Shown here one piece after another: positions 22,971 to 46,093 of a stretch of 64,000 nt of DNA. The translations under genes were made by a program, and so were the position numbers. The DNA lies in contig NZ_CP108131.1 of the NCBI RefSeq assembly GCF_036203305.1, forward strand, positions 7,378,001 to 7,442,000. The letters are read 5' to 3'. Numbering within the stretch: the stretch's first letter is position 1; every line of letters begins with the position of its first letter. The notes under the pieces were generated by a model. It was given only the letters and a program-made list of their open reading frames with translations. It was not told where the DNA came from and made no database searches. The DNA comes from Streptomyces sp. NBC_00190. Lineage in GTDB: Bacteria; Actinomycetota; Actinomycetes; Streptomycetales; Streptomycetaceae.

Positions 22971-25900
22971 TCATCTCGACTCCCCTTCCTGGGGCGGAGC
23001 CAGGCCGGGGCCGAGCCAGACGTCCTCCACGGGGCGGCCGAGCAGGTACTCGGCGCCGTAGGGGTAGCGCTTGAAGGCCGCGGGCTGGTACATCGCGTGC
23101 TCGCCCTTCCTGGGCGGCGGCAGCGACGGGGCGTCCCGCAGGGCCTCGAACTCCGGGCGTACGGAGTCGGGGAGCATCCCGCGGTCGAGGTGGTGCGCCG
23201 CCAGCCGACGGACCAGGTGCCGTGCCAGCTCCCCGCTGTCCGTGTCCCGTTCGAAGAGCAGGGTGAGCCGGTAGTAGGTGTCGTTCCCGTCCGGGCCGTC
23301 CTGCTGGATCTCCACCACCATTTCGCAGTCGTTGAGGAAACTCTGCTTGGGCCGGAAGCCGACCGAGTTGGCCCACGGATAGCGGATGTGGCCCGCGAGT
23401 CTGAGGCCTTCGGCATCCGGCTCGTCGGCGACCAGCACCAGCCGGGCGTCGGTCACGTACAGGCTCAGCCCGAAGATCCGCCACTCGGTCTCCGAAGCCG
23501 AGCGGAAGTTGGCGAAGTCGAGCGTCTCCTTCGTCCACCACGCCCCGCGGACCGGAACGGGACCGTGTACCTCACCGTCGAACGAGGTGAACCTGATCCG
23601 GCCGTCCGGATGGAACCGGGTGTGCCGCACATCCGCCAACTCCTGCTCGTCCGGGCCGTGCCGGGCCATCATCATGAACGGCTCGTGCACGACGCGGGAG
23701 GGCGGCCGGGGCGGGACGGCCGGACCGCCCGGAGCGGCGGCCCGCGCGCTCACCGCAGGCCGCTCCGGCTCCCAAGGCTTCTCGGACCGCCGGCGCCGCC
23801 GGGAATCCGGACGGGCCGGGGGAGCGGCGGCCGGTTTCCTGCCCGGTCCCTCGCCGAGTCCCACGTACGCGTAGGCGAGGAAGGCCAGCGGGAACGAGCC
23901 GCGGCCGTCGCGCCACCGCTGCAGCTCCGCGCGCTGCACGGCGCGCAGCGCCGCCGCGGGTTCGACATGGTGGCGCAGGGCCTCGACGAGGCCGAGGTCG
24001 ATCCGCTGCGCGGTCGGGGAGTCCAGGAGTTTGAACAGGGTGCAGTACACGTGCTCGGCGCCGCCGTGGACGACCGCGGCGCCCAGCCCGAGCCACTCGG
24101 GTACGTCCAGCAGGGACGGGGCGTACCCGCTGTCCGGCTGCCCGTACACACCGAGGCTCGCGCAGGCGGCGAGCAGCACGCGGCGGGGCATCCGGTAGAG
24201 GGGCGCCCCCGCGTCATCGGTCCGGTACAGGTCGTGCAGCCCCAGGGGGCCGTCGCAGAACTGGAAGCCGGAGCCGCCGGGATCGCTCCGGGTGGGGCCG
24301 GCCACGTGGCCCGCGAGGTAGAGGACGGCCTCGTCCGTGCCCTCCCGGGCGAGGAGCGAGGCGAATTCGGCCTTGCTCAGGGGGCCGACGACCACCTCGC
24401 TGTCCTCGGGGACGGTGGCCACGGCGCTGCGCAGCTTCTGGTCGGGATGGTGTGGGGGCAGGTCCGGCCCCAGGACGGCCAGGGCCGCGGGCGCCTCGCC
24501 GCCCCTCGGGGCCGCCGCATCGTCCCGTGCGGGGGACGCGAGCGCAGCGTCCCGCACGGTGATCCGCCGCCGCTGCGACAACAGGGCGATCGACGGCAGG
24601 TAGGACACCTGCGCCGCGTCCAGGACCAGTCGTTGCGGCGTGAGCGTGAGCGCACAGACCGGTACGAGGGCCAGCGCGCCCGTGGGCGCCAGCACCAGCG
24701 GCACCGGCGCCGGGGCCGTGCGCAGGGCTTCGCGCAGCACCTCGGGGAGCATCGCGGCGCCGAGCCCGTCGAAGATCCGCGACCACACCTGACCCGCGGT
24801 CAGGGATTCTCCCGCCACCGGGTCGTCGGCGCCCACGAGCATCAGGGCGCTGCCCCGCAGCCGCTTCGCCTGCGAGGGCGCCCCCGGCAGCCGGACGGGC
24901 AGGTGCCGGACCAGGTCCTCGTAGGGACCGGCGAACTCCGCGTGCACGGTGCGCTGGGCGTGCCAGTCGCCCGACGGGCTGCGGACCGCGTGATAGATCC
25001 ACTCTCCGACCCGTGCGTAACTCCAGTACCACCCGCCCGGAAACATCGTCTCGATCTCGCCGTCGAGATCGACGGCCGCGGGCTCCTCACCGCCGACCCA
25101 GGAGGCGCGGCGCACCAGGATGGTCCGGTCGGTCAGCAGCGGGTCGGAGGACTGCGGATCCGGCGGCGCAGCCTTCCCGCCCGCGCCACCGGGGCCGGGG
25201 CCGAGCGCGGGCGGCAGGCCCGTGCTGGAGACCAGCGCGTCGAGCACCGCGCGCAGACGGCTGCCCCGTTCGTCCGACTCGACGGGCACGGACTGTGCGC
25301 GGATGATCTCCAGCAGCTCGCCGACCAGGGCCGGATCGGCCGCCGCGAGGTCCAGCGCGAGGGCGTAGGTGGAGGCGTGGGAGGCGACCCAGCGCGCCCG
25401 CCACTGGGTGGTGGGCAGCTGGTAGCGGACGCGCTGGACGGCGCCCAGGCTCTCCAGGGCGTTGCCCAGCGCTTCCTCGTGCATCCCGACGGCCCGCTGG
25501 ATGCGGGCGAGCGCGGCGTAGGCCTGGGACTCCAGCAGCGGCATCCGCGACCGGCTCAGGTGGCGCAGCACGTTGTCCATGAGCCCGGCGGCGTAGACGT
25601 AGCGCTCGTGCCGTCCGTCCTCGTCGACGCGGTCGGTCTCGGGATGGTCCTGCGGGTTCTCGATGATGTCCAGGTAGAGGGTGACCAGCAGCAGCACCTG
25701 CGCCGCGTGGTCCCCGACGGAGGCGCCCAGATCGGCCAGGCCGTCCTTCTGCTCGTACTGGCCCATCAGCTGTTCCACCACGCCGACCGTGTTGCCCGCG
25801 TCGTGCATCAGGCGCAGCACCAGCAGCTCCGTCCGGGCCAGCACGGCCAGGTTCCCGGCGCGCATCGCCGCGTGGCGGGTGCGGCACATGAGCCGGAGGC

Positions 25901-26939
25901 CTTCGACGCACCGGACGGAGTCCCGCGGGTCCGCGGTCAGGGCCTCGGTCATGCGCAGTTCGGCCTCGGCGGCCCAGTAACGGGCCCGGCGGCCCTGCCC
26001 CAGCAACTGGACGGCCTCCCGCCAGCGCGCTTCCGCGGCCGCGGGCTGACCCGCGGCCAGCAGGACGTCCCCGGCCTGCAGCGCGCACCAGCCGCGGATC
26101 CCGGGCGGCGCGGCCGCCGCGAGGGCGCGGGCTTCCTCCGACAGCACCATGGCCGACTGGAATTCGAGCCGGGCGACGGCGGCCAGGGCCCGGCACTGCA
26201 CGAGGACCGGCCCGACCCGGTCCGGCAGCGGTTCGCCGCCGTCTCCGAGGAACCACTCGGTCCGGGCCCGGTCGTCATGGGTCGCCTTGTCCACGGCGAG
26301 GACCACACGGGCCGCCGTACTGTCCCACATGGCGCGCAGCAGGAAGAACCGGCCCAGGAACCGTACGGGGCTGTCGGCGGGTGCCTGGGACGTGATGCCG
26401 AGCCGCAGCATCGACAGCGACAGCCGCACGAGGGCGACGAGCGCGGCGGCGGGCAGGGCGGCGATCAGCAGGGCAGGGCCGGTCCAGGCGGCCCAGAGGA
26501 GGACGCCGGCGAGTGAAGCGCCGGCCAGGGGCCTGCGCCAGCCGGTCAGGGCCCACGCCGTCACCGGGAAACAGACCGCGGCCCAGCCGGGAGCGGACAG
26601 CAGCAGACACGCCGTCACCGTCAGCGCCACGACGGCCGAGCGGACCGCGAGGACCTTCCACCACAGGGTGCGTTCGAGAGCGGCGAACAGATCGCACTCG
26701 TACAGCCCGATGCGGGTCCTCCCCGACCGGCCGGCCCGGGCCAGCCACCAGGACACGGCGAAACGGGGGAGCAGCCCGAGCAGGGTCCATGGACGGAGCC
26801 CCTTCGAGAACAGCCCCGACAGGGGGATCGCGTCCTCGATGATCGCTTCGTCGTGGTCGAGCCGGTTGCGCTGCGCGAGCCAGTCGCGCAGCCCGTCCTC
26901 GGCGTCCGGGCCGAACGGATCGAAAACCGAGATGTTCAC
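22971..26939 (-). CDS. Membrane-anchored TPR-CHAT caspase-like protease with possible PH/GRAM-like C-terminus
   Basis: 1322 residues starting at GTG 26939, which overlaps the upstream stop (GTGA). Residues 98-133 and 139-175 are hydrophobic and should form two to four membrane spans. About 225-620 is helical and TPR-like (ALAAVARLEFQSAMVLSEEARAL, AEARWREAVQLLGQG, LESQAYAALARIQRAVGM). The CHAT domain covers about 690-1000 with catalytic His878 (LYLAGHVAG) and Cys926 (VLLAACASLG), the CHAT/separase dyad. After an Arg/Pro-rich linker, about 1090-1250 (IFGLSLYVTDARLVLVADEPD, IRYPWANSVGF, YRLTLLFERD) resembles a PH/GRAM fold, which I infer only. It probably acts at the membrane on a partner encoded upstream. 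Third gene of the operon. Confidence 0.85.
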   Translation of the reverse strand: MNISVFDPFGPDAEDGLRDWLAQRNRLDHDEAIIEDAIPLSGLFSKGLRPWTLLGLLPRFAVSWWLARAGRSGRTRIGLYECDLFAALERTLWWKVLAVRSAVVALTVTACLLLSAPGWAAVCFPVTAWALTGWRRPLAGASLAGVLLWAAWTGPALLIAALPAAALVALVRLSLSMLRLGITSQAPADSPVRFLGRFFLLRAMWDSTAARVVLAVDKATHDDRARTEWFLGDGGEPLPDRVGPVLVQCRALAAVARLEFQSAMVLSEEARALAAAAPPGIRGWCALQAGDVLLAAGQPAAAEARWREAVQLLGQGRRARYWAAEAELRMTEALTADPRDSVRCVEGLRLMCRTRHAAMRAGNLAVLARTELLVLRLMHDAGNTVGVVEQLMGQYEQKDGLADLGASVGDHAAQVLLLVTLYLDIIENPQDHPETDRVDEDGRHERYVYAAGLMDNVLRHLSRSRMPLLESQAYAALARIQRAVGMHEEALGNALESLGAVQRVRYQLPTTQWRARWVASHASTYALALDLAAADPALVGELLEIIRAQSVPVESDERGSRLRAVLDALVSSTGLPPALGPGPGGAGGKAAPPDPQSSDPLLTDRTILVRRASWVGGEEPAAVDLDGEIETMFPGGWYWSYARVGEWIYHAVRSPSGDWHAQRTVHAEFAGPYEDLVRHLPVRLPGAPSQAKRLRGSALMLVGADDPVAGESLTAGQVWSRIFDGLGAAMLPEVLREALRTAPAPVPLVLAPTGALALVPVCALTLTPQRLVLDAAQVSYLPSIALLSQRRRITVRDAALASPARDDAAAPRGGEAPAALAVLGPDLPPHHPDQKLRSAVATVPEDSEVVVGPLSKAEFASLLAREGTDEAVLYLAGHVAGPTRSDPGGSGFQFCDGPLGLHDLYRTDDAGAPLYRMPRRVLLAACASLGVYGQPDSGYAPSLLDVPEWLGLGAAVVHGGAEHVYCTLFKLLDSPTAQRIDLGLVEALRHHVEPAAALRAVQRAELQRWRDGRGSFPLAFLAYAYVGLGEGPGRKPAAAPPARPDSRRRRRSEKPWEPERPAVSARAAAPGGPAVPPRPPSRVVHEPFMMMARHGPDEQELADVRHTRFHPDGRIRFTSFDGEVHGPVPVRGAWWTKETLDFANFRSASETEWRIFGLSLYVTDARLVLVADEPDAEGLRLAGHIRYPWANSVGFRPKQSFLNDCEMVVEIQQDGPDGNDTYYRLTLLFERDTDSGELARHLVRRLAAHHLDRGMLPDSVRPEFEALRDAPSLPPPRKGEHAMYQPAAFKRYPYGAEYLLGRPVEDVWLGPGLAPPQEGESR

Positions 26940-28009
26940 TCCGGCGCCAGCTTCCCCGTCAATTTCAGCGTCCGGTAGAAGGTGGCCGCCCGGCGGTCCT
27001 CCCGGCGGTCGGCCCTGATGTCCTTCTCGGTGAGAGCCGGATCGGCCATGTCGCTCTTGACCAGGAGCAGCAGGAGCCGGCCGTCGAGCAGGTCGAACAC
27101 CCGGTTCGCCAGGGCGAGCAGGGCCAGCCACCAGGGGATGCCGAGAACCGCCGTCGCCACGAGGAGGGCGAGGTCGACGGCCAGCCGGGCCCCGGGCGAG
27201 AGGTACTGCCGCCGGGCCAGCTGGCTCGCGAGCCAGAGCGCGGACCAGGCAGTCACCGTGAGGGTGGCCCAGGCCGTGGCGGCCAGCGTGCACAGGATCA
27301 CCAACTGGGCCCAGAGCCGCACCCGGACGTGCAGACGGATGAGATGGGCCTGCACCCGTGAGCTGATGTGTGCGACTCCGCTGTTCTCGGACCGCATGCC
27401 GATGCTCCGCGCCGTCCGCTTGCCCCGCCGCCGCTCCCGGGTCTCGAAGGAGTACGCCGCGGGGCGGTCCGGGCGGCCGGGCGAAAGGATCGGCCCCCGG
27501 TCGGACGGCTGCCGGTCCAGGGCGCAGACCCGGTGGCGTTCCGTCATGGCGCTGCGCAGCACGGCCCGTTCGGTCAGCCCCGTCCCGCGGAGGAACCGGC
27601 GTACGTCCTCGTCGTCCGCGCGGGCCTCCAGGCAGACGAGCAGGAGATGGGCGGTGTCGGCGGAGCCGTCCCCGGTCCGCCCCGTCCAGTACGCCAGCCT
27701 GCCGAGCGCGGCCGACGCGGCGGGGGAAAGGGGCACCACCCGGGTCCGGCCGTTCATGCCGGCCTCCGCGGCGGCGACCGCGTCGGTCGCCTCCTCGGTG
27801 AGGAAGTGGTGCGCGGCCAGGGACTTCATCACGAGCCGGGACCGCGAGGAGGGATCGCCCGAGCTCATCGACGCGTGCAGCAGGTGCATGGGTCCGACCG
27901 GTTCCCCCTCGCCGTCGGCCAGGGCCTGCGCGACCTCGACGCACCTGGTCAGAGCGGGAGTCCGGCGGGCGGAGGGTGATGCGCCACCCCGGGGCGGCTG
28001 CGCGGTCAT
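26936..28009 (-). CDS. Clp-N-like domain membrane protein
   Basis: 357 residues. The first 160 contain two repeats like the Clp R/N domain: ALTRCVEVAQALADGEGEPVGPMHLLHA and LSPAASAALGRLAYWTGRTGDGSADTAHLLLVCLEA. A basic linker and two strong hydrophobic stretches follow (about 232-262 and 282-310), then a charged tail rich in Arg/Asp. No ATPase module is present. Clp-N domains recognise peptides or adaptors, so this could be a membrane receptor or sensor feeding the CHAT protease. It overlaps both neighbours (ATGA with the upstream gene, GTGA with the CHAT gene). Function unknown; the Clp-N match is by pattern. Confidence 0.65.
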   Translation of the reverse strand: MTAQPPRGGASPSARRTPALTRCVEVAQALADGEGEPVGPMHLLHASMSSGDPSSRSRLVMKSLAAHHFLTEEATDAVAAAEAGMNGRTRVVPLSPAASAALGRLAYWTGRTGDGSADTAHLLLVCLEARADDEDVRRFLRGTGLTERAVLRSAMTERHRVCALDRQPSDRGPILSPGRPDRPAAYSFETRERRRGKRTARSIGMRSENSGVAHISSRVQAHLIRLHVRVRLWAQLVILCTLAATAWATLTVTAWSALWLASQLARRQYLSPGARLAVDLALLVATAVLGIPWWLALLALANRVFDLLDGRLLLLLVKSDMADPALTEKDIRADRREDRRAATFYRTLKLTGKLAPE

Positions 28010-28827
28010 GGGGCGGTTCGGTCTTCGAGCGGGCCGGACTGCGCGGGGACGCAGTCGGTCCAGCTGACGGGCGCGAGCTCCAGTTCCACGGGCTCGTCGG
28101 ACCCTCCATGGAGGCCTGCCTCGTCCTCGTATTCCTCCTCGTCGTCGTCCTCGTCGGAACGGAAGACCAGTTCCGGCGGGCCCACCAGCCTCCTGCGCAG
28201 CTGTACGGCCTGGAACAGCGGGGTGGCGCCGTCCGGGGCGAGCACGCTGGCAGCGATCCCGGACTTGGCGGTGACCGAGTAGTTCCCGATGGCGCCGGCG
28301 ACCGCCAGTGGTCCGCCCAGACTGCCCGCGCGAACCCGGAGGTTCATCTGGGCGCCGTGCTGCTCGGAGACGAGGATGGCGGTGGGGCCGGTGCGCACGA
28401 CCTCGGTCACGACGACGTACTCGGTGCGCCACGTCTTGTTCGCGTACCGCTCGCGAAGCGCCTCCTGGAGTGCGAGCAGGTTCCCGATGGTCTCCTGTAC
28501 GCAGCCCGATGCCTGGAAGAGCGTGGCTCCGCCCCGGTCGAAGGTGATGGACAGGTTGGTCATGACATCGGCCGCGGGGTCGTCCACGCGGGTGCCGGCG
28601 GTCACCGCGACACAGTCGGCCGAGGAGTAGTCGAGATCGACGGTCTTGCTCTCGGCGCCCCTGGTGAACGGGATGCCCAGTTCGTCGAGCGTGGTGACCT
28701 TTCTGAACCTGTGCTGCGAGATGAGGCCGACATCGCCCAGCGCGAGGGGGGTGGAGGGGAGCCAGCAGGCGAGGTACTTGTACTTCTTGTGCAGCTCACG
28801 CGTGTACCGGTCGGGGATGGAACTCAT
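28006..28827 (-). CDS. Putative gasdermin-like pore-forming protein (first gene of CHAT operon)
   Basis: 273 residues, no signal peptide. It has a Cys near the N-terminus (Cys21, YLACWLPS), then LALGDVGLI, a long beta-rich body, a helical segment (LALQEALRERY) and YVVVTEVVRTG...ILVSE..GAQMNLRV, ending in ATPLFQAVQLRRRL. This order, with the strand pattern before 'PLxFxAVQL', recalls bacterial gasdermins, which sit beside caspase-like or other proteases and are cleaved to release a pore-forming core. The last ~50 residues form a very acidic tail (DEDDDEEEYEDE, 224-235) that could be the inhibitory, cleavable part. All this is inference from memory of the family; no search was run. Stop overlaps the next ATG. 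Confidence 0.4.
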   Translation of the reverse strand: MSSIPDRYTRELHKKYKYLACWLPSTPLALGDVGLISQHRFRKVTTLDELGIPFTRGAESKTVDLDYSSADCVAVTAGTRVDDPAADVMTNLSITFDRGGATLFQASGCVQETIGNLLALQEALRERYANKTWRTEYVVVTEVVRTGPTAILVSEQHGAQMNLRVRAGSLGGPLAVAGAIGNYSVTAKSGIAASVLAPDGATPLFQAVQLRRRLVGPPELVFRSDEDDDEEEYEDEAGLHGGSDEPVELELAPVSWTDCVPAQSGPLEDRTAP

Positions 28828-29170: not shown

Positions 29171-29407
29171 ATGCGTGTGTGGAAGAGTGCGGGCCTTGCC
29201 CTGGCGGTCGGTCTGGCGGTCCTCGGCGGTGCGTCCTCGGCCTCGGCGGACGCCGAGGCTCACGGGATCGCGGCGGGCTCGCCCGGTGTCCTGTCGGGCA
29301 ACCTGATCCAGATCCCGATTCACATCCCGATCAACGTCTGCGGTAACAGCGTGAACGTGATCGGTGCGCTGAACCCGGCCGGTGGCAACGTCTGCGTCAA
29401 CACCTGA
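29171..29407 (+). CDS. Short chaplin
   Basis: 78 residues: a Sec signal peptide (SAGLALAVGLAVLGGASSASA) and one chaplin domain (GIAAGSPGVLSGNLIQIPIHIPINVCGNSVNVIGALNPAGG, with Cys57 and Cys75). Short chaplins are secreted amphipathic proteins that self-assemble into amyloid-like sheaths on aerial hyphae, making them hydrophobic. The two Cys allow the usual disulfide. There is no sortase motif, so it is the short class (ChpD-H type). An in-frame GTG lies just before at 29168. This gene is strong evidence for a streptomycete source. Confidence 0.95.
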   Translation: MRVWKSAGLALAVGLAVLGGASSASADAEAHGIAAGSPGVLSGNLIQIPIHIPINVCGNSVNVIGALNPAGGNVCVNT

Positions 29408-38953: not shown

Positions 38954-40765
38954 ATGCCCATCCCCCCCGACCATCCCGTACCCGCCCTCGCCGAAGTGGC
39001 CCCCGAGGCCTGGCGGGAGGCCAACCGCCGGCTCCTCGCCAAGGCGCTGGGCGAGTGGTGTTTCGAGGACATGCTCAAGGCCCAGGAGACCGGAGACGGC
39101 GGCTACCGCGTCGATCTCGACAGCGGTACGACCTACGCTTTCAGCGCCGCGCCCGGTGCGTTCGGGTGGCTGCGGGTCGACGCGGGCTCCATCACCCGCA
39201 CCGCCACCAGCATGCTCGGCAACGCGGTGGCCGAACCGGCCTGGGACGCCCTGCAGTTCCTTCTCGAAGCGGCATCGACCCTCGGCAGCGACGCCTCGAC
39301 GATCGCCACCTACTTCACCGAGCTGTCCGCCACGCTCGCGGTCGACGCCGCGCGCATCACGCACGGCGGCGAGACCGTGGCCGAGCTGCGAGCCCTCGGC
39401 CACACCGAGCTGGAGTGCCGGATGACGGGGCACAACCTCCTCGTCGCGAACAAGGGCCGCATCGGCTTCTCGGCCACCGACGTACGGGAATACGCCCCCG
39501 AGTCGGCCCGCCCGCTCAGGCTCCGCTGGCTGGCCGTACACCGCGGTCTCGCCGAGTTCCGCGGCACCTCGGAGCTGTCCGAGCAGGAGATCCTGGCCCG
39601 TGAGCTGGACGAGGAGACCCGGACCCGCTTCACCGCGGTCCTGGAGGCGGCGGGAGTCGATCCGCAGGGCTACGTGTGGATGCCCGTGCACCCCTGGCAG
39701 TGGGATCACGCCGTCCAGATCCTGCACGCGGCCGACGTGGCGCAGCGCCGCGTCATACCGCTGGGCGACACCACGGACGCGTACCTGCCGGGCCAGTCCA
39801 TCCGCACCATGGCCAACGCCACCAGCCCCGACCGGTACGACGTCAAACTTCCGCTGAAGATCCTCAACACCCTCGTCTGGCGCGGCATCCCGCCGCACTG
39901 CACCATGGGCGCCCCCGTCGTCACCCAGTGGCTGCGCGGACTCGTGGAGCGCGACGCGTTCCTCAGCCGTGAGTGCCGGACCGTCTTCCTCGGCGAGGTC
40001 GCCTCCGTCACCGTCCGCCACCCCTACCTGTCCACGCTCCAGGACGCGCCCTACCAGCACCTGGAGACCCTGGGCTGCATCTGGCGGGACTCGGTCACCG
40101 CCCGCAAGGACCCGGACGAGAAGGTCCGCACCTTCTCCTCGCTGCTCCACGTCGACCACACCGGCGACGCGTTCGTGGCCGAACTCGTCCGCGCCTCCGG
40201 CCTCGAACCGCAGGAATGGCTGCGCCGGCTCTTCGACACGCTGCTCGTCCCGATCCTGCACGTGCTCTACCGGTACGGAGTCACCTTCAACCCGCACGGC
40301 CAGAACACGCTCATCGGCTACGACGCGAACGACGTCCCGGCCCGCCTCTACCTGAAGGACTTCGTCGACGACGTGTGCGTGTCCTTCACCGACGTGCCCG
40401 AGCGCGGACCGGAGCCGGACGGCCACGACCACGTCCTGCCCCGCAAGCACCCCTCCGTCATCAAGCAGCACGTCATGGACCAGGTCTTCGTCGGCCACTT
40501 CCGCTACCTCGCCCCGCTCTGCGCCGAACAGCTCGGCGTACCGGAGAAGACGTTCTGGCGCATGGTCCGCCGGACGATCCTCGACTTCCAGCGCCGCTTC
40601 CCCGAACTGGCCGACAGGTTCGCCGAGTACGACCTGCTCACCCCGCAGATCCCCCGGTACGGGCTCAACCGCGACCGGATCGTGGTCACCCGGTACGGCG
40701 ACCGCGCCCTGCGCCACGCGCTGTACCCGAACGGCACGCACCCCAACCCGCTGGCAGAAGCCTGA
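38954..40765 (+). CDS. NIS siderophore synthetase (IucA/IucC family, DesD-like)
   Basis: 603 residues: MPVHPWQWDH, the IRTMANATSPDRYDVKLPLKILNT segment (nucleotide and carboxylate site), VTFNPHGQNTLIGY, and the C-terminal ferric-transporter-like FhuF-related helix region. The N-terminal part (VAPEAWREANRRLLAKALGEW, SITRTATS) is close to type C synthetases such as DesD and RhbC/IucC. It would condense an N-acyl-N-hydroxy-diamine with a carboxylate using ATP. Iron-regulated; the first gene of the five-gene operon, with a 12-bp gap to the next. Confidence 0.93.
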   Translation: MPIPPDHPVPALAEVAPEAWREANRRLLAKALGEWCFEDMLKAQETGDGGYRVDLDSGTTYAFSAAPGAFGWLRVDAGSITRTATSMLGNAVAEPAWDALQFLLEAASTLGSDASTIATYFTELSATLAVDAARITHGGETVAELRALGHTELECRMTGHNLLVANKGRIGFSATDVREYAPESARPLRLRWLAVHRGLAEFRGTSELSEQEILARELDEETRTRFTAVLEAAGVDPQGYVWMPVHPWQWDHAVQILHAADVAQRRVIPLGDTTDAYLPGQSIRTMANATSPDRYDVKLPLKILNTLVWRGIPPHCTMGAPVVTQWLRGLVERDAFLSRECRTVFLGEVASVTVRHPYLSTLQDAPYQHLETLGCIWRDSVTARKDPDEKVRTFSSLLHVDHTGDAFVAELVRASGLEPQEWLRRLFDTLLVPILHVLYRYGVTFNPHGQNTLIGYDANDVPARLYLKDFVDDVCVSFTDVPERGPEPDGHDHVLPRKHPSVIKQHVMDQVFVGHFRYLAPLCAEQLGVPEKTFWRMVRRTILDFQRRFPELADRFAEYDLLTPQIPRYGLNRDRIVVTRYGDRALRHALYPNGTHPNPLAEA

Positions 40766-40777
40766 GGAGGCCAGGGC

Positions 40778-42331
40778 GTGATACCGCTCACCGAGGCACC
40801 ACCCGCGCCGTTCGCCCTCCCGCCCTCCTACCCGCGCTCCCTGCTCGCCGGGTCCCGTGAGGGTCTGGCCGGGGTCTCCGCCGCGCTGGCAGACGCGGTC
40901 GGCACCGTGCGCGAAGCCCGCCGTCCCACGGGACCGGTACCGGCCGGCAGGCCCCGCGACGTCCTCGCGGCGGCGGCCGGGACACTGGGACCGGCCCGGC
41001 TCCCCGCCGAGGGGCTCGGCGCCGAAGCCGCGCTCAGGCTGCTGGCCACCGTGCTGGTCGAGCACGGCATCGATCTGGCCCACCCCCGCGCCGCGGCCCA
41101 CCTGCAGCCGCCCCCGCTGGCGGTCGCCGTCGCCGCGGACACCCTGGCGAGCGCGGCCAACGCCTCCCTGGACACGTACGATTCCGGCCCGTCGGCCCTC
41201 GCCGTCGAGCGCTGGCTCATCGGCGTACTGACCGGCCTCGCCGGACTGGGGGAGCGGGCCGACGGCGTCCTCACCCCGGGCGGCTCGCTGTCCAACCTGC
41301 TGGGCCTGCTGCTGGCCAGGGACGCCGCCGCCCTCCGGCTCGGTGTCGACGTCCGGGAGGACGGGGTGGCCGCCCTCCCCGGACCGGTCGTGTTCTGCTC
41401 GGAACTCGCCCACTTCTCGGTTCAACGGGCCTGCGCCGCCCTCGGGCTGGGCGAGCGGGCCGTGCACCTCGTACCCACCGACGAGCGCCGGCGGATGCGG
41501 CCGGCGGCGCTGGCCGCCGCCCTGGACGGACTCGGCCCCGGCCGGACGCCGCTCGCCGTCGTCGCGACCGCCGGCACCACGGACTTCGGCTCCGTGGACC
41601 CGCTCCCGGAGCTCGCCGAGATCGCCGCGGGACACGGCACATGGATGCACGTGGACGCCGCGTACGGATTCGGCGCCCTGTTCTCCGAGCGGCTGGCCGG
41701 CCGCCTGGCCGGACTGGAACTGGCCGACTCCATCACCCTCGACCTGCACAAGACCGGCTGGCAGCCCGCCGCCACCAGCGCTCTGCTCGTGTCCGAAACG
41801 ACCGCCTTCACCGCCCTCGACCGGGAGGTCGCCTACCTCAACCCGGCCGACGACTCCGACGCAGGTTACGACGGCCTGCTCGGCCGCAGCCTGCAGACCA
41901 CCCGGCGGGCCGACGCCGTGAAGGCCGCCGCCACCCTGCTGGCGTACGGCCGCACCGGAATGGGCCGGATGGTCGACGTCTGCCACGGCCTCGCCCGGCA
42001 CGCCGAGCGCCGCATCATCGCCGAACCGGAACTCGAACTGGTCTCGCCCGCCGAACTGACCACCGTGGTCTTCCGCTACCGGGGCGCCGGCAGCCCCGGC
42101 GCCGCCGACCGCCTCAACGGCGACCTGCGCAGACGGCTCCTGGAAACGGGCAGCGCCCTGATCGGGCGCACCGAGGTCCGCGCCGCCGGACCGGGCTCCC
42201 CGGCGCGGGTGTGCCTGAAGTTCACCCTGCTCAACCCCACGGCCACCGTGGACGACATCGACGGCCTCGTGGACATCGTCCTCGACGCCGGCCGCACCTG
42301 TGAACGACTCGTAGAGGAGAGCGCCGCATGA
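40778..42331 (+). CDS. PLP-dependent group II decarboxylase (siderophore diamine formation)
   Basis: 517 residues; fold type I amino acid decarboxylase. TPGGSLSNLLGLLLARD, VVATAGTTDFGSVDP, HVDAAYGFGALFSE and the PLP-lysine motif DLHKTGWQP are present. It resembles RhbB/DesA-type enzymes, which make diaminopropane (from diaminobutyrate) or cadaverine (from lysine). No diaminobutyrate aminotransferase (RhbA) is seen, and a LysA-type gene is nearby, so lysine-to-cadaverine is favoured. GTG start after TGAGGAGG; the stop overlaps the next ATG. Confidence 0.9.
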   Translation: MIPLTEAPPAPFALPPSYPRSLLAGSREGLAGVSAALADAVGTVREARRPTGPVPAGRPRDVLAAAAGTLGPARLPAEGLGAEAALRLLATVLVEHGIDLAHPRAAAHLQPPPLAVAVAADTLASAANASLDTYDSGPSALAVERWLIGVLTGLAGLGERADGVLTPGGSLSNLLGLLLARDAAALRLGVDVREDGVAALPGPVVFCSELAHFSVQRACAALGLGERAVHLVPTDERRRMRPAALAAALDGLGPGRTPLAVVATAGTTDFGSVDPLPELAEIAAGHGTWMHVDAAYGFGALFSERLAGRLAGLELADSITLDLHKTGWQPAATSALLVSETTAFTALDREVAYLNPADDSDAGYDGLLGRSLQTTRRADAVKAAATLLAYGRTGMGRMVDVCHGLARHAERRIIAEPELELVSPAELTTVVFRYRGAGSPGAADRLNGDLRRRLLETGSALIGRTEVRAAGPGSPARVCLKFTLLNPTATVDDIDGLVDIVLDAGRTCERLVEESAA

Positions 42332-44145
42332 GCACCACCGCCGCGGCTTCCACCCCTGTCCCCGCTCCCGCTGCCCCCGCACCGGTCGCACCTGCCGATC
42401 CGTTGCACGGCCCCGACGCCCGTGGCGCGGCCGAACACGCTCACATCGAGGCCCTGTTGCGCTGCTGGCTGCTGGAGACCGGAACACCGGTCACCGCCGG
42501 CCCGCTGCGGATCGAGCTCCCCGCCTCCGGACTGGCACTCGTCACCGAGGTGACCCACCGCTCGCCGACCGGCTGGCACCGCTTCGCCCCCGTCCGTCTG
42601 GAGGGACCCGGCGGCCCGCTCGGCGCGAGCGCCGATCCCGTCACCGCCGTCGCACTGCTCTCCACCGAGGCGGCCGTACGCGGCGCGGCCCGCCCCGGCG
42701 GCGTCCCGGCCGGCGAGGTCGCCGACCTGGTGGAACGCACCGCCGAGTCCGTACGCCGCGTCGCGTCCTTCCTCTCCGACCGGCGTGCGCACCCGCAGCC
42801 GCCCGCCGGGACCGACGGCTTCCTCGACTCCGAACAAGCCCTGTTGCTGGGCCACTTGAACCACCCCGCGCCGAAGAGCCGCGACGGCATCTCGGACAAC
42901 GACGCGGCCGCCTTCTCGCCCGAGCTGCGCGGCTCCTTCCGGCTCCACTGGTTCGCCGCCGACGAGTCGGTGGTCTCGCACGACGCGGTGGACAAGGCCC
43001 CCTCCCTGGGCGGACAGGACACCGTCGCCCTCCTCGCCGACCTCGCCGGCCGCCGCCTGGACGACGGCCGTGTCCTGGTTCCCGCACACCCGTGGCAGGC
43101 CCGCGACCTGCTGCACCGCCCGCGCACCGCCGCCCTGATCGCCTCCGGCGCACTCGAACCGCTCGGCGAACTGGGCCCCGAGTGGTGGCCGACCTCCAGC
43201 GTGCGCACCGTGTACCGGCCGGACACCGACGTGATGCTCAAGCTCTCGCTCGGCCTGCGCCTGACCAATTCCCGCCGCGAGTCCACCCGTACGGAGCTGC
43301 GCCGCGGCCTGGAGATCAACCGGCTCCTCGACGCCGGGTACGCGGACGGCACCTTCCACGCCCACCCCGGCTTCGCCATCACACGGGACCCCGCCTGGCT
43401 CGCGGTGGACGAGCCGGGGCGCCCGGACGGGCCCGAGGTGACCGGCCTCGACGTCGCTGTACGCGAAGTGCCCCGCGGCATCGCCGACCTGCGCTGCCTC
43501 GTGGGCCTGGTCGCACCCCGGCCGGGTCTGGGCCGCAGCAGGCTGGGGGAGCTGGTGTCCGGCCTCGGCCCCGGCGCCGCCGAGCAGTGGACCGCCGACT
43601 ACACCGACCAGGTGCTGGTCCCCATGCTGCACCTGTACGCCGCCACCGGGATCGGCCTGGAGGCCCATCAGCAGAACACCCTCGTCCGGCTGGACGGCCG
43701 GGGCCGGGTGACCGGCGGCACGTTCCGCGACAACCAGGGCTACTACCTGGCCGCCTCGTACCTGCCCGGTCTGCTCGGGCGGCTCGGCGCGGCCTCCTCC
43801 ACCCTGGCCGTGGTCGACGACGCCCTCGTCGACGACCGGCTGTCGTACTACCTGCTGCGCAACCAGGCCCTGTCGGTCATCGGCTGCCTCGCCGTCGACG
43901 GCCTCGGCGACGAGCGCGAGCTGCTCGCCGTACTCGCCGGCCGGCTGCGCGCCGCACTGCCCGCCCTGGTTGCGGCCGGACCCGACGGCGACCGCCTCGC
44001 CCGCCGCTGGCTGGAGGCCGACACCCTGCCCTGCAAGGGCAACCTGCTCACCCGGCTGCACGGAATCGACGAGGTCCTCGCCCCCCTCGACGCCCAGTCG
44101 GTGTACCTCGACGCCCCCAACCCCCTCCAGGAGGCCACGGCATGA
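42328..44145 (+). CDS. Second NIS siderophore synthetase (IucA-like)
   Basis: 605 residues: an Ala/Pro-rich start, then LLGHLNHPAPKSRDGIS, VPAHPWQARDL, MLKLSLGLRLTNSRRE and GLEAHQQNTLVRL. The pattern is nearer to IucA/RhbF type A enzymes that use citrate as first acceptor. Together with the other synthetase, one should add the first and the other the second hydroxamate arm to citrate. It overlaps both neighbours by ATGA. Confidence 0.93.
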   Translation: MSTTAAASTPVPAPAAPAPVAPADPLHGPDARGAAEHAHIEALLRCWLLETGTPVTAGPLRIELPASGLALVTEVTHRSPTGWHRFAPVRLEGPGGPLGASADPVTAVALLSTEAAVRGAARPGGVPAGEVADLVERTAESVRRVASFLSDRRAHPQPPAGTDGFLDSEQALLLGHLNHPAPKSRDGISDNDAAAFSPELRGSFRLHWFAADESVVSHDAVDKAPSLGGQDTVALLADLAGRRLDDGRVLVPAHPWQARDLLHRPRTAALIASGALEPLGELGPEWWPTSSVRTVYRPDTDVMLKLSLGLRLTNSRRESTRTELRRGLEINRLLDAGYADGTFHAHPGFAITRDPAWLAVDEPGRPDGPEVTGLDVAVREVPRGIADLRCLVGLVAPRPGLGRSRLGELVSGLGPGAAEQWTADYTDQVLVPMLHLYAATGIGLEAHQQNTLVRLDGRGRVTGGTFRDNQGYYLAASYLPGLLGRLGAASSTLAVVDDALVDDRLSYYLLRNQALSVIGCLAVDGLGDERELLAVLAGRLRAALPALVAAGPDGDRLARRWLEADTLPCKGNLLTRLHGIDEVLAPLDAQSVYLDAPNPLQEATA

Positions 44146-44756
44146 CCTCGGCGCAGCCGTTACACCAGGACGAGGACCAGCCCGGCGCCGTCGGATCCGC
44201 CGTCCCCGGCCCGCCGCTCCCGCGCCTGGACGGCCCCTGGTCGGCACGGGTCGCGCAGGCCCGGGGAGCCGATGCGGACCTCGTGCACGGCTGGATGCGG
44301 TCACCGCACATCGACGCCTTCTGGCACCAGGCATGGCCCCGCGAGCGCTGGGTGCGCGAGCTTGCGGGGCACCTCGCCGGCGACGCCGTTCTCCCCGTCC
44401 TGATCGGCCGGGACGGCCGGCCGTTCGCGTACATCGAGATCTACCGGGTGGCGCGGGACCGCCTCGCCGGCCACTACCCGCACCTGCCCCACGACCTGGG
44501 CCTGCACATCGCCATCGGCGAGGCGAGCCGCACCGGCCAGGGCCTCGGCCGGGCCCTGCTGCGCGCGCTCGCCGAGGGCCTGCTCACCGCCGACCCCGCG
44601 TGCACGCGGGTGGTCGCCGAGCCGGACGTGACCAACGCCCCCTCGCTGAAGGCGTTCGCCGCCGCCGGTTTCCGCCACGCCGGGGAGGTCACTTTCCCTG
44701 ACAAGACCGCCGCGCTGCTCGTGCACCCGCGCCGGGAGGAGGACATGCCCCGATGA
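44142..44756 (+). CDS. GNAT N-acyltransferase (hydroxamate formation)
   Basis: 204 residues; IucB/RhbD-type GNAT. Features: DLVHGWMRSPHIDAFWHQAWP, FAYIEIYRVARDRLAGHY, HIAIGEASRTGQGLGRALLRALAEGL, RVVAEPDVTNAPSLKAFAAAGF. It acylates the N-hydroxy-diamine, with acetyl-CoA as the usual donor in this family. The start overlaps the NIS2 stop (CATGA) and the end overlaps the hydroxylase start. Confidence 0.9.
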   Translation: MTSAQPLHQDEDQPGAVGSAVPGPPLPRLDGPWSARVAQARGADADLVHGWMRSPHIDAFWHQAWPRERWVRELAGHLAGDAVLPVLIGRDGRPFAYIEIYRVARDRLAGHYPHLPHDLGLHIAIGEASRTGQGLGRALLRALAEGLLTADPACTRVVAEPDVTNAPSLKAFAAAGFRHAGEVTFPDKTAALLVHPRREEDMPR

Positions 44757-46093
44757 GCGAACCCACCAGCGAGCACGACGTGGTGGCCGTCGGCTGCGGC
44801 CCCTTCAACCTGGGGCTCGCCGCTCTCGCCTCGACGGTGGACGGCCTGGACCTGGTCGTACTGGAGGAGCAGCCCGAGCTCACCTGGCACCGGGGGATGA
44901 TGTTCGCCGACGCCTCGATGCAGGTGAACTTCCTGGCCGACCTCGTCACCCTCGTCGCACCCGGCCATCCCCTGTCGTTCCTCACCTACCTCCACGACAT
45001 GGACCGGCTCTACACCTTCACGGTGCGCGAGAACTTCTTCCCCTCCCGTCGTGAGTACGAGGACTACCTGCGCTGGGCGGCGGCGAAACTCTCCTCGGTG
45101 CGCTTCTCGCACCGCGCCGTGGAGGTCCACTGGGACGCCGCCGCCGAAACCTTCACCGTGCACGCCGTGCGCGGCGACGGCACACGCCTGCGGATGCTCG
45201 CCCGCAACCTTGTCCTGGGCATCGGCACGGCCCCGTACGTGCCGGACGCCCTCGCCGGCCTGCCGCCCTCACGACTGCTGCACACCGCCGACTACCTGTA
45301 CCGGGCGTCCGACGTGGACGGTGCCGCGAAGGTCACGGTGATCGGCTCGGGCCAGTCGGGGGCCGAGGTCACGGCCGCCCTGCTGGGGCGCAACCTCGCG
45401 GGCGGACCGGCGGTGAGCTGGCTGACGCGCACCTCCTCGTTCGCCCCGCTGGACTACACCAAGATGGTCCTGGAGATGACCACCCCCGCGTACATGGAGT
45501 ACTTCCACTCTTTGCCCGAGGAGGTACGGGACCGGCTGACCCGGGAGCAATGGCAGTTCTACAAGGGGATCTCCACCGACACCCTGGAGGAGATCCACGA
45601 ACTGCTCTACCGCCGCCAGCTGGAGCACGGACTGGCCGAGGCGGAGCTGCGCTTCGGCATCACGGTGGAGTCGGCGGCCACGGATCCGGCGGGGCGGGCG
45701 GTGCTGACCTGCCGGCACCGCGACACGGGCCTGCTCTTCGAGCACACCACCGACCTCGTGGTGGCCGCCACCGGCTACCGGGGCCGCCCGCCCGCGTTCC
45801 TGAAACCGGTCGAGGACCTGTTGCTACGGGACGGACGCGGGCGCCACCGGGTACGCCTGGACCATTCCGTCGAGCTGGCGGAAGGGGTGACCGGCCGCGT
45901 CTTCGTGGCGAACGCCGAGACCCACAGCCACGGTGTCTCCTCGCCCAATCTGGACATCGGCGCGGTGCGCAACGCCACGATCCTGAACGCGGTCACGGGC
46001 CGGGAGGTCTACCGGCTGCCGAAGCGGAGCGCGTTCACGACGTTCGAGGCCCCGCGACGGACGCTCCGGGCAGGGCCGGACGCGGTGCGCTGA
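44753..46093 (+). CDS. Lysine/diamine N-hydroxylase (IucD/DesB-like flavoprotein)
   Basis: 446 residues: FAD motif VAVGCGPFNLGLAALA, MQVNFLADLVTLVAPG, NADPH motif VIGSGQSGAEVTAALL, and late ATGYRGRPP and NAETHSHGVSSPNL. It N-hydroxylates a terminal amine of lysine, cadaverine or diaminopropane as the step before acylation. Last gene of the operon, coupled to the acyltransferase by overlap. A perfect 19-bp hairpin follows. Confidence 0.93.
   Translation: MSEPTSEHDVVAVGCGPFNLGLAALASTVDGLDLVVLEEQPELTWHRGMMFADASMQVNFLADLVTLVAPGHPLSFLTYLHDMDRLYTFTVRENFFPSRREYEDYLRWAAAKLSSVRFSHRAVEVHWDAAAETFTVHAVRGDGTRLRMLARNLVLGIGTAPYVPDALAGLPPSRLLHTADYLYRASDVDGAAKVTVIGSGQSGAEVTAALLGRNLAGGPAVSWLTRTSSFAPLDYTKMVLEMTTPAYMEYFHSLPEEVRDRLTREQWQFYKGISTDTLEEIHELLYRRQLEHGLAEAELRFGITVESAATDPAGRAVLTCRHRDTGLLFEHTTDLVVAATGYRGRPPAFLKPVEDLLLRDGRGRHRVRLDHSVELAEGVTGRVFVANAETHSHGVSSPNLDIGAVRNATILNAVTGREVYRLPKRSAFTTFEAPRRTLRAGPDAVR

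Follow-up and report, generated by a model that had tools for sequence, protein, structure and literature searches.

In animals, gasdermins and caspases mediate inflammatory cell death. To our knowledge, few bacterial systems built from a gasdermin and a caspase have been studied. In the described bacterial arrangement, a gasdermin (bacterial gasdermin, bGSDM) is paired with a caspase-like protease of the C14 or CHAT type, as given in the excerpt of PMC9612521 considered here. According to the same excerpt, described bGSDMs have an inhibitory C-terminal peptide of about 20 residues, and the majority of them, not all, carry an N-terminal palmitoylated Cys. In fungi, about 17% of the pairs formed by a gasdermin and a HET-Q2-like protease have a CHAT protease (excerpt of PMC10989679), and structure clustering has returned gasdermin-like clusters that are un-annotated (excerpt of PMC10584675). 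Here, we describe a three-gene operon in a 64,000-nucleotide stretch of Streptomyces sp. NBC_00190 (NZ_CP108131.1; the window, to whose positions all coordinates refer). Genes A, B and C are arranged head to tail on its minus strand (22971-28827), and encode what is most likely a divergent gasdermin, a Clp-N-like membrane protein and a CHAT (caspase-like) protein with a predicted membrane anchor. We consider it probable that the operon is a bacterial pyroptosis-type module, in which protein C, gated by protein B, would cut an acidic linker in protein A and free a pore-forming core. The operon resembles a bacterial counterpart of the animal pyroptosis machinery in a multicellular bacterium, and the main steps of this mechanism can be tested directly with one operon.

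The operon shares with the described bGSDM systems a short gasdermin that lacks a large C-terminal domain, an adjacent C14/CHAT protease and a C-terminal peptide after a linker. It differs from these systems, as far as the excerpt of PMC9612521 describes them, in that P0001 (the product of gene A) matches no bGSDM model, its family scores under the NCBIfam cut-off and the N-terminal Cys is absent. In addition, the window protease has a predicted membrane anchor, and the partner B is a Clp-N membrane protein and not an NLR, FGE/C-type-lectin or CARD protein. With the Lysobacter CARD-gasdermin system, as presented in the excerpt of PMC13236601, the operon would share a protease-activated gasdermin, a dedicated sensor and a role in phage defence. 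In contrast to that system, no CARD or NLR was recognised by Pfam in the three window proteins, where Clp-N holds the regulator position. A second type of related operon (type 2) does combine a gasdermin and a CHAT protein with a protein of about 1700 residues. The fungal pairs follow the same two-gene logic of a gasdermin plus a CHAT or subtilase protease, whereas their host is a fungus and the excerpt of PMC10989679 makes no mention of a Clp-N partner. The clusters of PMC10584675 likewise have a gasdermin fold recognised from structure alone; they may or may not include the family of A, and the excerpt mentions neither gene neighbourhoods nor Clp-N. Among the literature matches listed, judged from titles and the starts of abstracts, no work on Streptomyces gasdermins or on a Clp-N/CHAT/gasdermin operon was recognised. 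We therefore view the operon as a variant of the known pairing of a gasdermin with a caspase-like protease, whose Clp-N/membrane-CHAT layout is provisionally new; the novelty is provisional because the primary bGSDM papers (Johnson et al. 2022; Wein et al. 2025) lie outside this comparison.

As the initial annotation had stated, gene A (P0001, 28006..28827, 273 residues) overlaps gene B (P0002, 26936..28009, 357 residues) by the four bases ATGA, and gene B overlaps gene C (P0003, 22971..26939, 1322 residues, GTG start) by the four bases GTGA. A codon-usage gene caller chose the minus strand, reproduced the limits of A and C, placed the start of B later (27889) and passed over the long antisense open reading frame. 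At three other loci with the same gene order (L006, L007 and L038), the four-base overlap of B with C recurs, and A and B are separated by 26, 35 and 75 bases. The survey of gene order that had been proposed at the outset found A, B and C together at all four loci with a full B, namely these three and the window, so that a lack of joint conservation, which had been named as a refutation, did not come about.

The proposal that A is gasdermin-like had been tied beforehand to a structure prediction of the 28006-28827 product, for which an unrelated fold would have counted as a refutation. The prediction was gasdermin-like, and its Foldseek matches at E<=1e-3 were gasdermins only. A distant homologue with 22-24% identity to A (P0035) gave a confident model (predicted local distance difference test, pLDDT, 90) whose structural matches were gasdermins or RCD-1 only. 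The gasdermin N-domain fold is thus found in the predicted structures of both proteins, with modest TM-scores. By sequence, homology to a characterised gasdermin is reached with the family profile only: with a profile built from 38 relatives, the top PDB match was the Bradyrhizobium gasdermin 7n50 (E 0.0023), followed by a row at 1.6. Consistently, 6 of the 38 family members match the PADLOC bGSDM model at E<=10, the best at 9.1e-4. These structural models and the family-profile homology point to a divergent gasdermin as the most likely identity of A. With no score above the curated cut-off of 100 bits, A is not counted among the members of the described bGSDM subfamily NF051890. The Mesorhizobium family protein, searched alone against the PDB, gave caspase-1 rows only (E>=0.81), which were taken as chance.

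The anatomy of A was compared across 19 sequences (A and 18 homologues). The gasdermin-like, putatively pore-forming core (residues 1-223, 28159..28827) consists of a helix at residues 4-16 followed mostly by beta strands, as assigned by DSSP on the model, and has a pairwise identity of 0.61. It is followed by a variable acidic linker (residues 224-245, 28093..28158), the proposed region of protease cutting. Identity falls to 0.32 with 28% gaps over residues 226-245, and residues 227-245 of A have a pLDDT <50. The very acidic tail noticed at the outset is real, with 13 of 24 residues being D/E and none K/R at positions 224-247. Behind the linker, residues 246-258 (28054..28092) form a conserved C-terminal segment with a pairwise identity of 0.51, 2% gaps and a predicted strand at 248-253, which we propose as an autoinhibitory plug. 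Conservation is lost again in residues 259-273 (identity 0.23). Many of the remoter members keep a short end motif within their own branch (by eye). This combination of a variable linker and a conserved end has the appearance expected of an autoinhibitory C-terminal peptide that follows a cuttable linker.

Protein C supplies the adjacent protease, putative in its activity, that characterises bacterial gasdermin systems. Its CHAT domain (residues 729-1008, 23916..24755) matches PF12770 with an E of 4.1e-17 and 63 bits against a cut-off of 24, and was found in the same place by the genome search. The catalytic-type residues His878 (24306..24308) and Cys926 (24162..24164) are conserved in all four C sequences compared (window, L006, L007 and L038); the dyad is claimed for these four only, and an automated dyad pattern missed several CHAT neighbours. 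By sequence, C is therefore a CHAT caspase-like protein with an intact His878/Cys926 dyad. All four sequences also have predicted membrane segments (residues about 94-183, 26391..26660; Kyte-Doolittle) and a conserved C-terminal domain (residues about 1085-1275, 23115..23687) with no Pfam match at E<=1. Of the membrane-TPR-CHAT architecture that the initial annotation had given C, the membrane segments, the CHAT domain and the dyad hold, and the TPR part drops out, with no Pfam TPR model matching C at E<=1. TPR models match some CHAT neighbours in related loci, all under their cut-offs. A profile of C gave no PDB match at E<=0.01. A cluster of three further CHAT domains within 16 kb is present in this genome at a distance of about 250 kb (G000:C1:7136656-7152405).

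A search with P0001 gave matches in 5 of 150 relatives, a count that includes its own genome, and a 26-member profile found at least 19 places in at least 16 of 394 Streptomycetaceae genomes, again including its own; these counts are lower bounds, as six candidates were scored per genome. Together with three places from the P0001 search, and with a truncated piece in G094 (L005/L013) excluded, this gives 22 family places in the Streptomycetaceae, which we compared with the CHAT matches (77 in total) of the 19 genomes in question. A CHAT domain lies within 5 kb of the gasdermin homologue at 20 of the 22, where chance would give about 0.5% per place and at most 1% (binomial 1.5e-38, a figure that ignores relatedness). 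For one of the 20 (G308), the reported CHAT match reads past one TGA. Outside the 22 places, L006 and L007 have orthologues of C at 62% identity. An annotated CHAT gene also lies directly upstream of the family gene on an Embleya plasmid, and another lies 2.5 kb from the gasdermin homologue on a Mesorhizobium plasmid (L076). The window gasdermin escapes the Pfam, NCBIfam and PADLOC models, and its family is tightly tied to caspase-like proteases. No match to A was found among 50,697 phage records. The NCBIfam gasdermin model had no matches in 396 Actinomycetota genomes and was also silent in all 14 controls, making it uninformative on absence.

The regulator position is held by B, for which a Clp-N-like identity is indicated by remote homology only. 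Residues 17-151 (27557..27961), assigned as a double Clp-N domain, align by hhalign with four Clp N-domain sequences encoded in this genome over 131 columns with a probability of 91%, and all eight controls (five column shuffles and three unrelated pieces) stayed <1%. In a PDB search with the B profile, Clp-N structures took ranks 1 and 2, at E values (0.071 and 0.47) that are not significant alone. Two predicted membrane spans follow at residues about 232-255 (27245..27316) and about 273-302 (27104..27193; Kyte-Doolittle). Two segments are also seen in the B proteins of L007 and L038, and only one is over the threshold in L006. The initial description of B as a Clp-N-like two-span protein is thus supported by controlled profile comparison and hydropathy, and falls short at the Pfam cut-off: PF02861 (Clp_N) does not match P0002 or the B proteins of L006 and L007, and matches that of L038 under the cut-off (E 0.0075). 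A full B is present in 2 of the 394 Streptomycetaceae genomes (the window's and G247), both times alongside A and C, and B had no match in plasmids. Two marginal partial matches to B in the genome search (E 4.2e-4 and 5.5e-4) were dropped.

At three further loci (L008/L039, which are the same contig, L042 and L043), A is adjoined by one large protein of 1347-1419 residues, which combines membrane segments and a CHAT domain with a C-terminal Clp_N match. This match is over the cut-off in L043 (E 2.8e-4) and under it in L042 (0.0046) and L008 (0.0043), and hhalign partly supports Clp-N at the C end (51%). The CHAT domain of L008 was found by the genome search (41.8 bits, same gene and contig) and missed by hmmscan. 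The occurrence of Clp-N and CHAT as separate genes in one place and as a single protein in another suggests that they work together. For the N-terminal end of these fused proteins, a Clp-N domain was rejected as unsupported (hhalign 3.7%).

From these features we infer a mechanism in which A would be kept inactive by its own short conserved plug, tethered to the core through the variable acidic linker. C would act as a membrane-anchored caspase-like protease, and B, which combines a double Clp-N domain with membrane spans, as a receptor or regulatory subunit of C. C would be activated by a signal of stress or infection, perhaps the binding of an abnormal protein to Clp-N, and would then cut A near residues 224-245. 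The freed core would oligomerise and perforate the cell membrane, leaving the cell killed or leaking, and the benefit would most likely be phage defence. The Clp-N partner suggests a new gating route for a caspase-like protease. A broader proposal, of proteostasis-gated pyroptosis, can be put forward tentatively: a Clp-N membrane receptor, similar to the substrate-sampling end of Clp unfoldases, might sense abnormal or phage proteins and signal through a membrane caspase-like protease to a gasdermin, in a large and hitherto unnamed branch that would span Actinomycetota, Pseudomonadota and Gemmatimonadota and use varied sensors (Clp-N, NACHT-like and C14-FGE).

Several observations weigh against this mechanism and against the identity of A on which it depends. 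The six Foldseek rows of A have TM-scores of 0.34-0.47 and root-mean-square deviations of 10.6-17.4, and four of its five structure models are weak (pLDDT 54-60). The TM-scores of P0035 are no better (0.27-0.47), and its alignment held ten rows from the window's branch and kin, so that it is not fully independent of A. The 7n50 match arose on the fourth profile tried, after earlier profiles had given none, 0.4 and 0.16. Two narrower profiles (A1 and A3) brought ankyrin chains to nearly equal E values (0.0037 and 0.0041); these were rejected as repeat-composition artefacts and are gone with the broader profiles A6 and A8. P0001 alone matches no Pfam, PADLOC or NCBIfam family, and the NCBIfam model NF051890 (prok_gasdermin) matches 3 of the 38 members at E<=1, the best at 0.062 and far under the 100-bit cut-off. 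The N-terminal Cys first ascribed to A is Cys21, which follows the first predicted helix and is present in 16 of the 19 sequences; a Cys within the first 15 residues occurs in none of the 19 and in 5 of 113 family proteins, so the argument for a lipid site fails. At 2 of the 22 places (L035 and L037), a CHAT domain lies at a distance of 17.9 and 17.5 kb, respectively. None was recognised next to the homologues of Amycolatopsis (L009) and Gemmatirosa (L075), where few neighbours were scanned with Pfam. Finally, no alignment was obtained between the Clp-N half of B and the two ends of the fused proteins (0.7% and 3.2%), and these proteins may therefore not derive from a fusion of B and C.

These points leave room for other explanations of the operon. 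It is very improbable that A is a different beta protein, pore-forming or lipid-binding, of the MACPF/CDC kind, or a regulator that forms no pores and resembles gasdermins only superficially, given that the fold comparisons of two models and the family profile all place gasdermins at the top. A could also be gasdermin-shaped and be activated independently of cleavage, for instance on its release from B or C, with the CHAT protein acting on another target. Cleavage-independent gasdermins are known from other lineages, and by eye no cut motif was identified in the variable linker. We regard this as quite unlikely in view of the CHAT linkage at 20 of 22 family places and of the variable linker ahead of a conserved plug, which is what a cut site requires.

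The function of the putative pores bears on a further alternative, in which the gasdermin module would serve development or secretion and not phage defence, with pores that lyse or leak the mycelium during sporulation-linked programmed death or release cytosolic products. Programmed death of the Streptomyces mycelium has long been reported, and a chaplin gene (PF03777) and an NlpC/P60 gene adjoin A. Contrary to the closeness to defence genes that had been looked for, no recognised defence gene was found among the 10 neighbouring genes scanned with Pfam; the PADLOC scan did not cover other window genes. However, the family is patchily distributed, being present in at least 16 of the 394 Streptomycetaceae genomes (the window's among them), which does not resemble a core function in development. 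Three different neighbourhoods are also seen (by eye): that of the window, that of L038 and the one shared by L006 and L007. Moreover, an AAA/NACHT-like protein and a caspase-FGE protein are neighbours of relatives, which recalls the described bGSDM systems. We rate a role in development or secretion as unlikely, and a protease-activated module with a benefit in defence remains our preferred account.

The related loci differ in the proteins that accompany the gasdermin homologue. The type-2 operons (L034, L036, L040, L041 and L012) have an inflammasome-like layout, in which the gasdermin homologue is accompanied by a CHAT protein of 548-712 residues and a protein of 1659-1704 residues. In the one large protein scanned (L034), AAA_22 is over the cut-off and NACHT under it. 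A fourth gene of 403-436 residues is present in L034, L036, L041 and L040 (where it is cut by the locus end) and was not seen in L012. L035 (9842-11095) and L037 (7396-8670) encode a partner of 417-424 residues with 42-45% identity to this fourth and last type-2 gene. On the Mesorhizobium plasmid, a caspase C14-FGE fusion protein (L076, 7379-8950) lies on the opposite side of the gasdermin homologue from the CHAT gene, and resembles the FGE/C-type-lectin neighbours of described bGSDMs. On the Gemmatirosa plasmid (L075, 8447-10744), a 507-residue protein is encoded directly upstream of the gasdermin homologue. It shows a weak match of transglutaminase type (DUF553, E 0.025), its start resembles TIR by eye, and it may represent another kind of protease partner. 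The truncated gasdermin start of L013 (8560-8700) is followed by unrelated sequence and is probably a decayed copy.

Within the window, the chaplin gene (29171-29407) is divergent from A and adjoins the NlpC/P60 gene. A CLC gene was considered as an anchor for comparison with empty sites, but in 9 of 25 relatives it is represented by distant copies only (28-38% identity), so it was unusable for comparing insertions. Further along, at 38954-46093, the window carries a siderophore-type cluster with IucA/IucC, a pyridoxal phosphate (PLP) decarboxylase, a GNAT acetyltransferase and a Lys/Orn monooxygenase.

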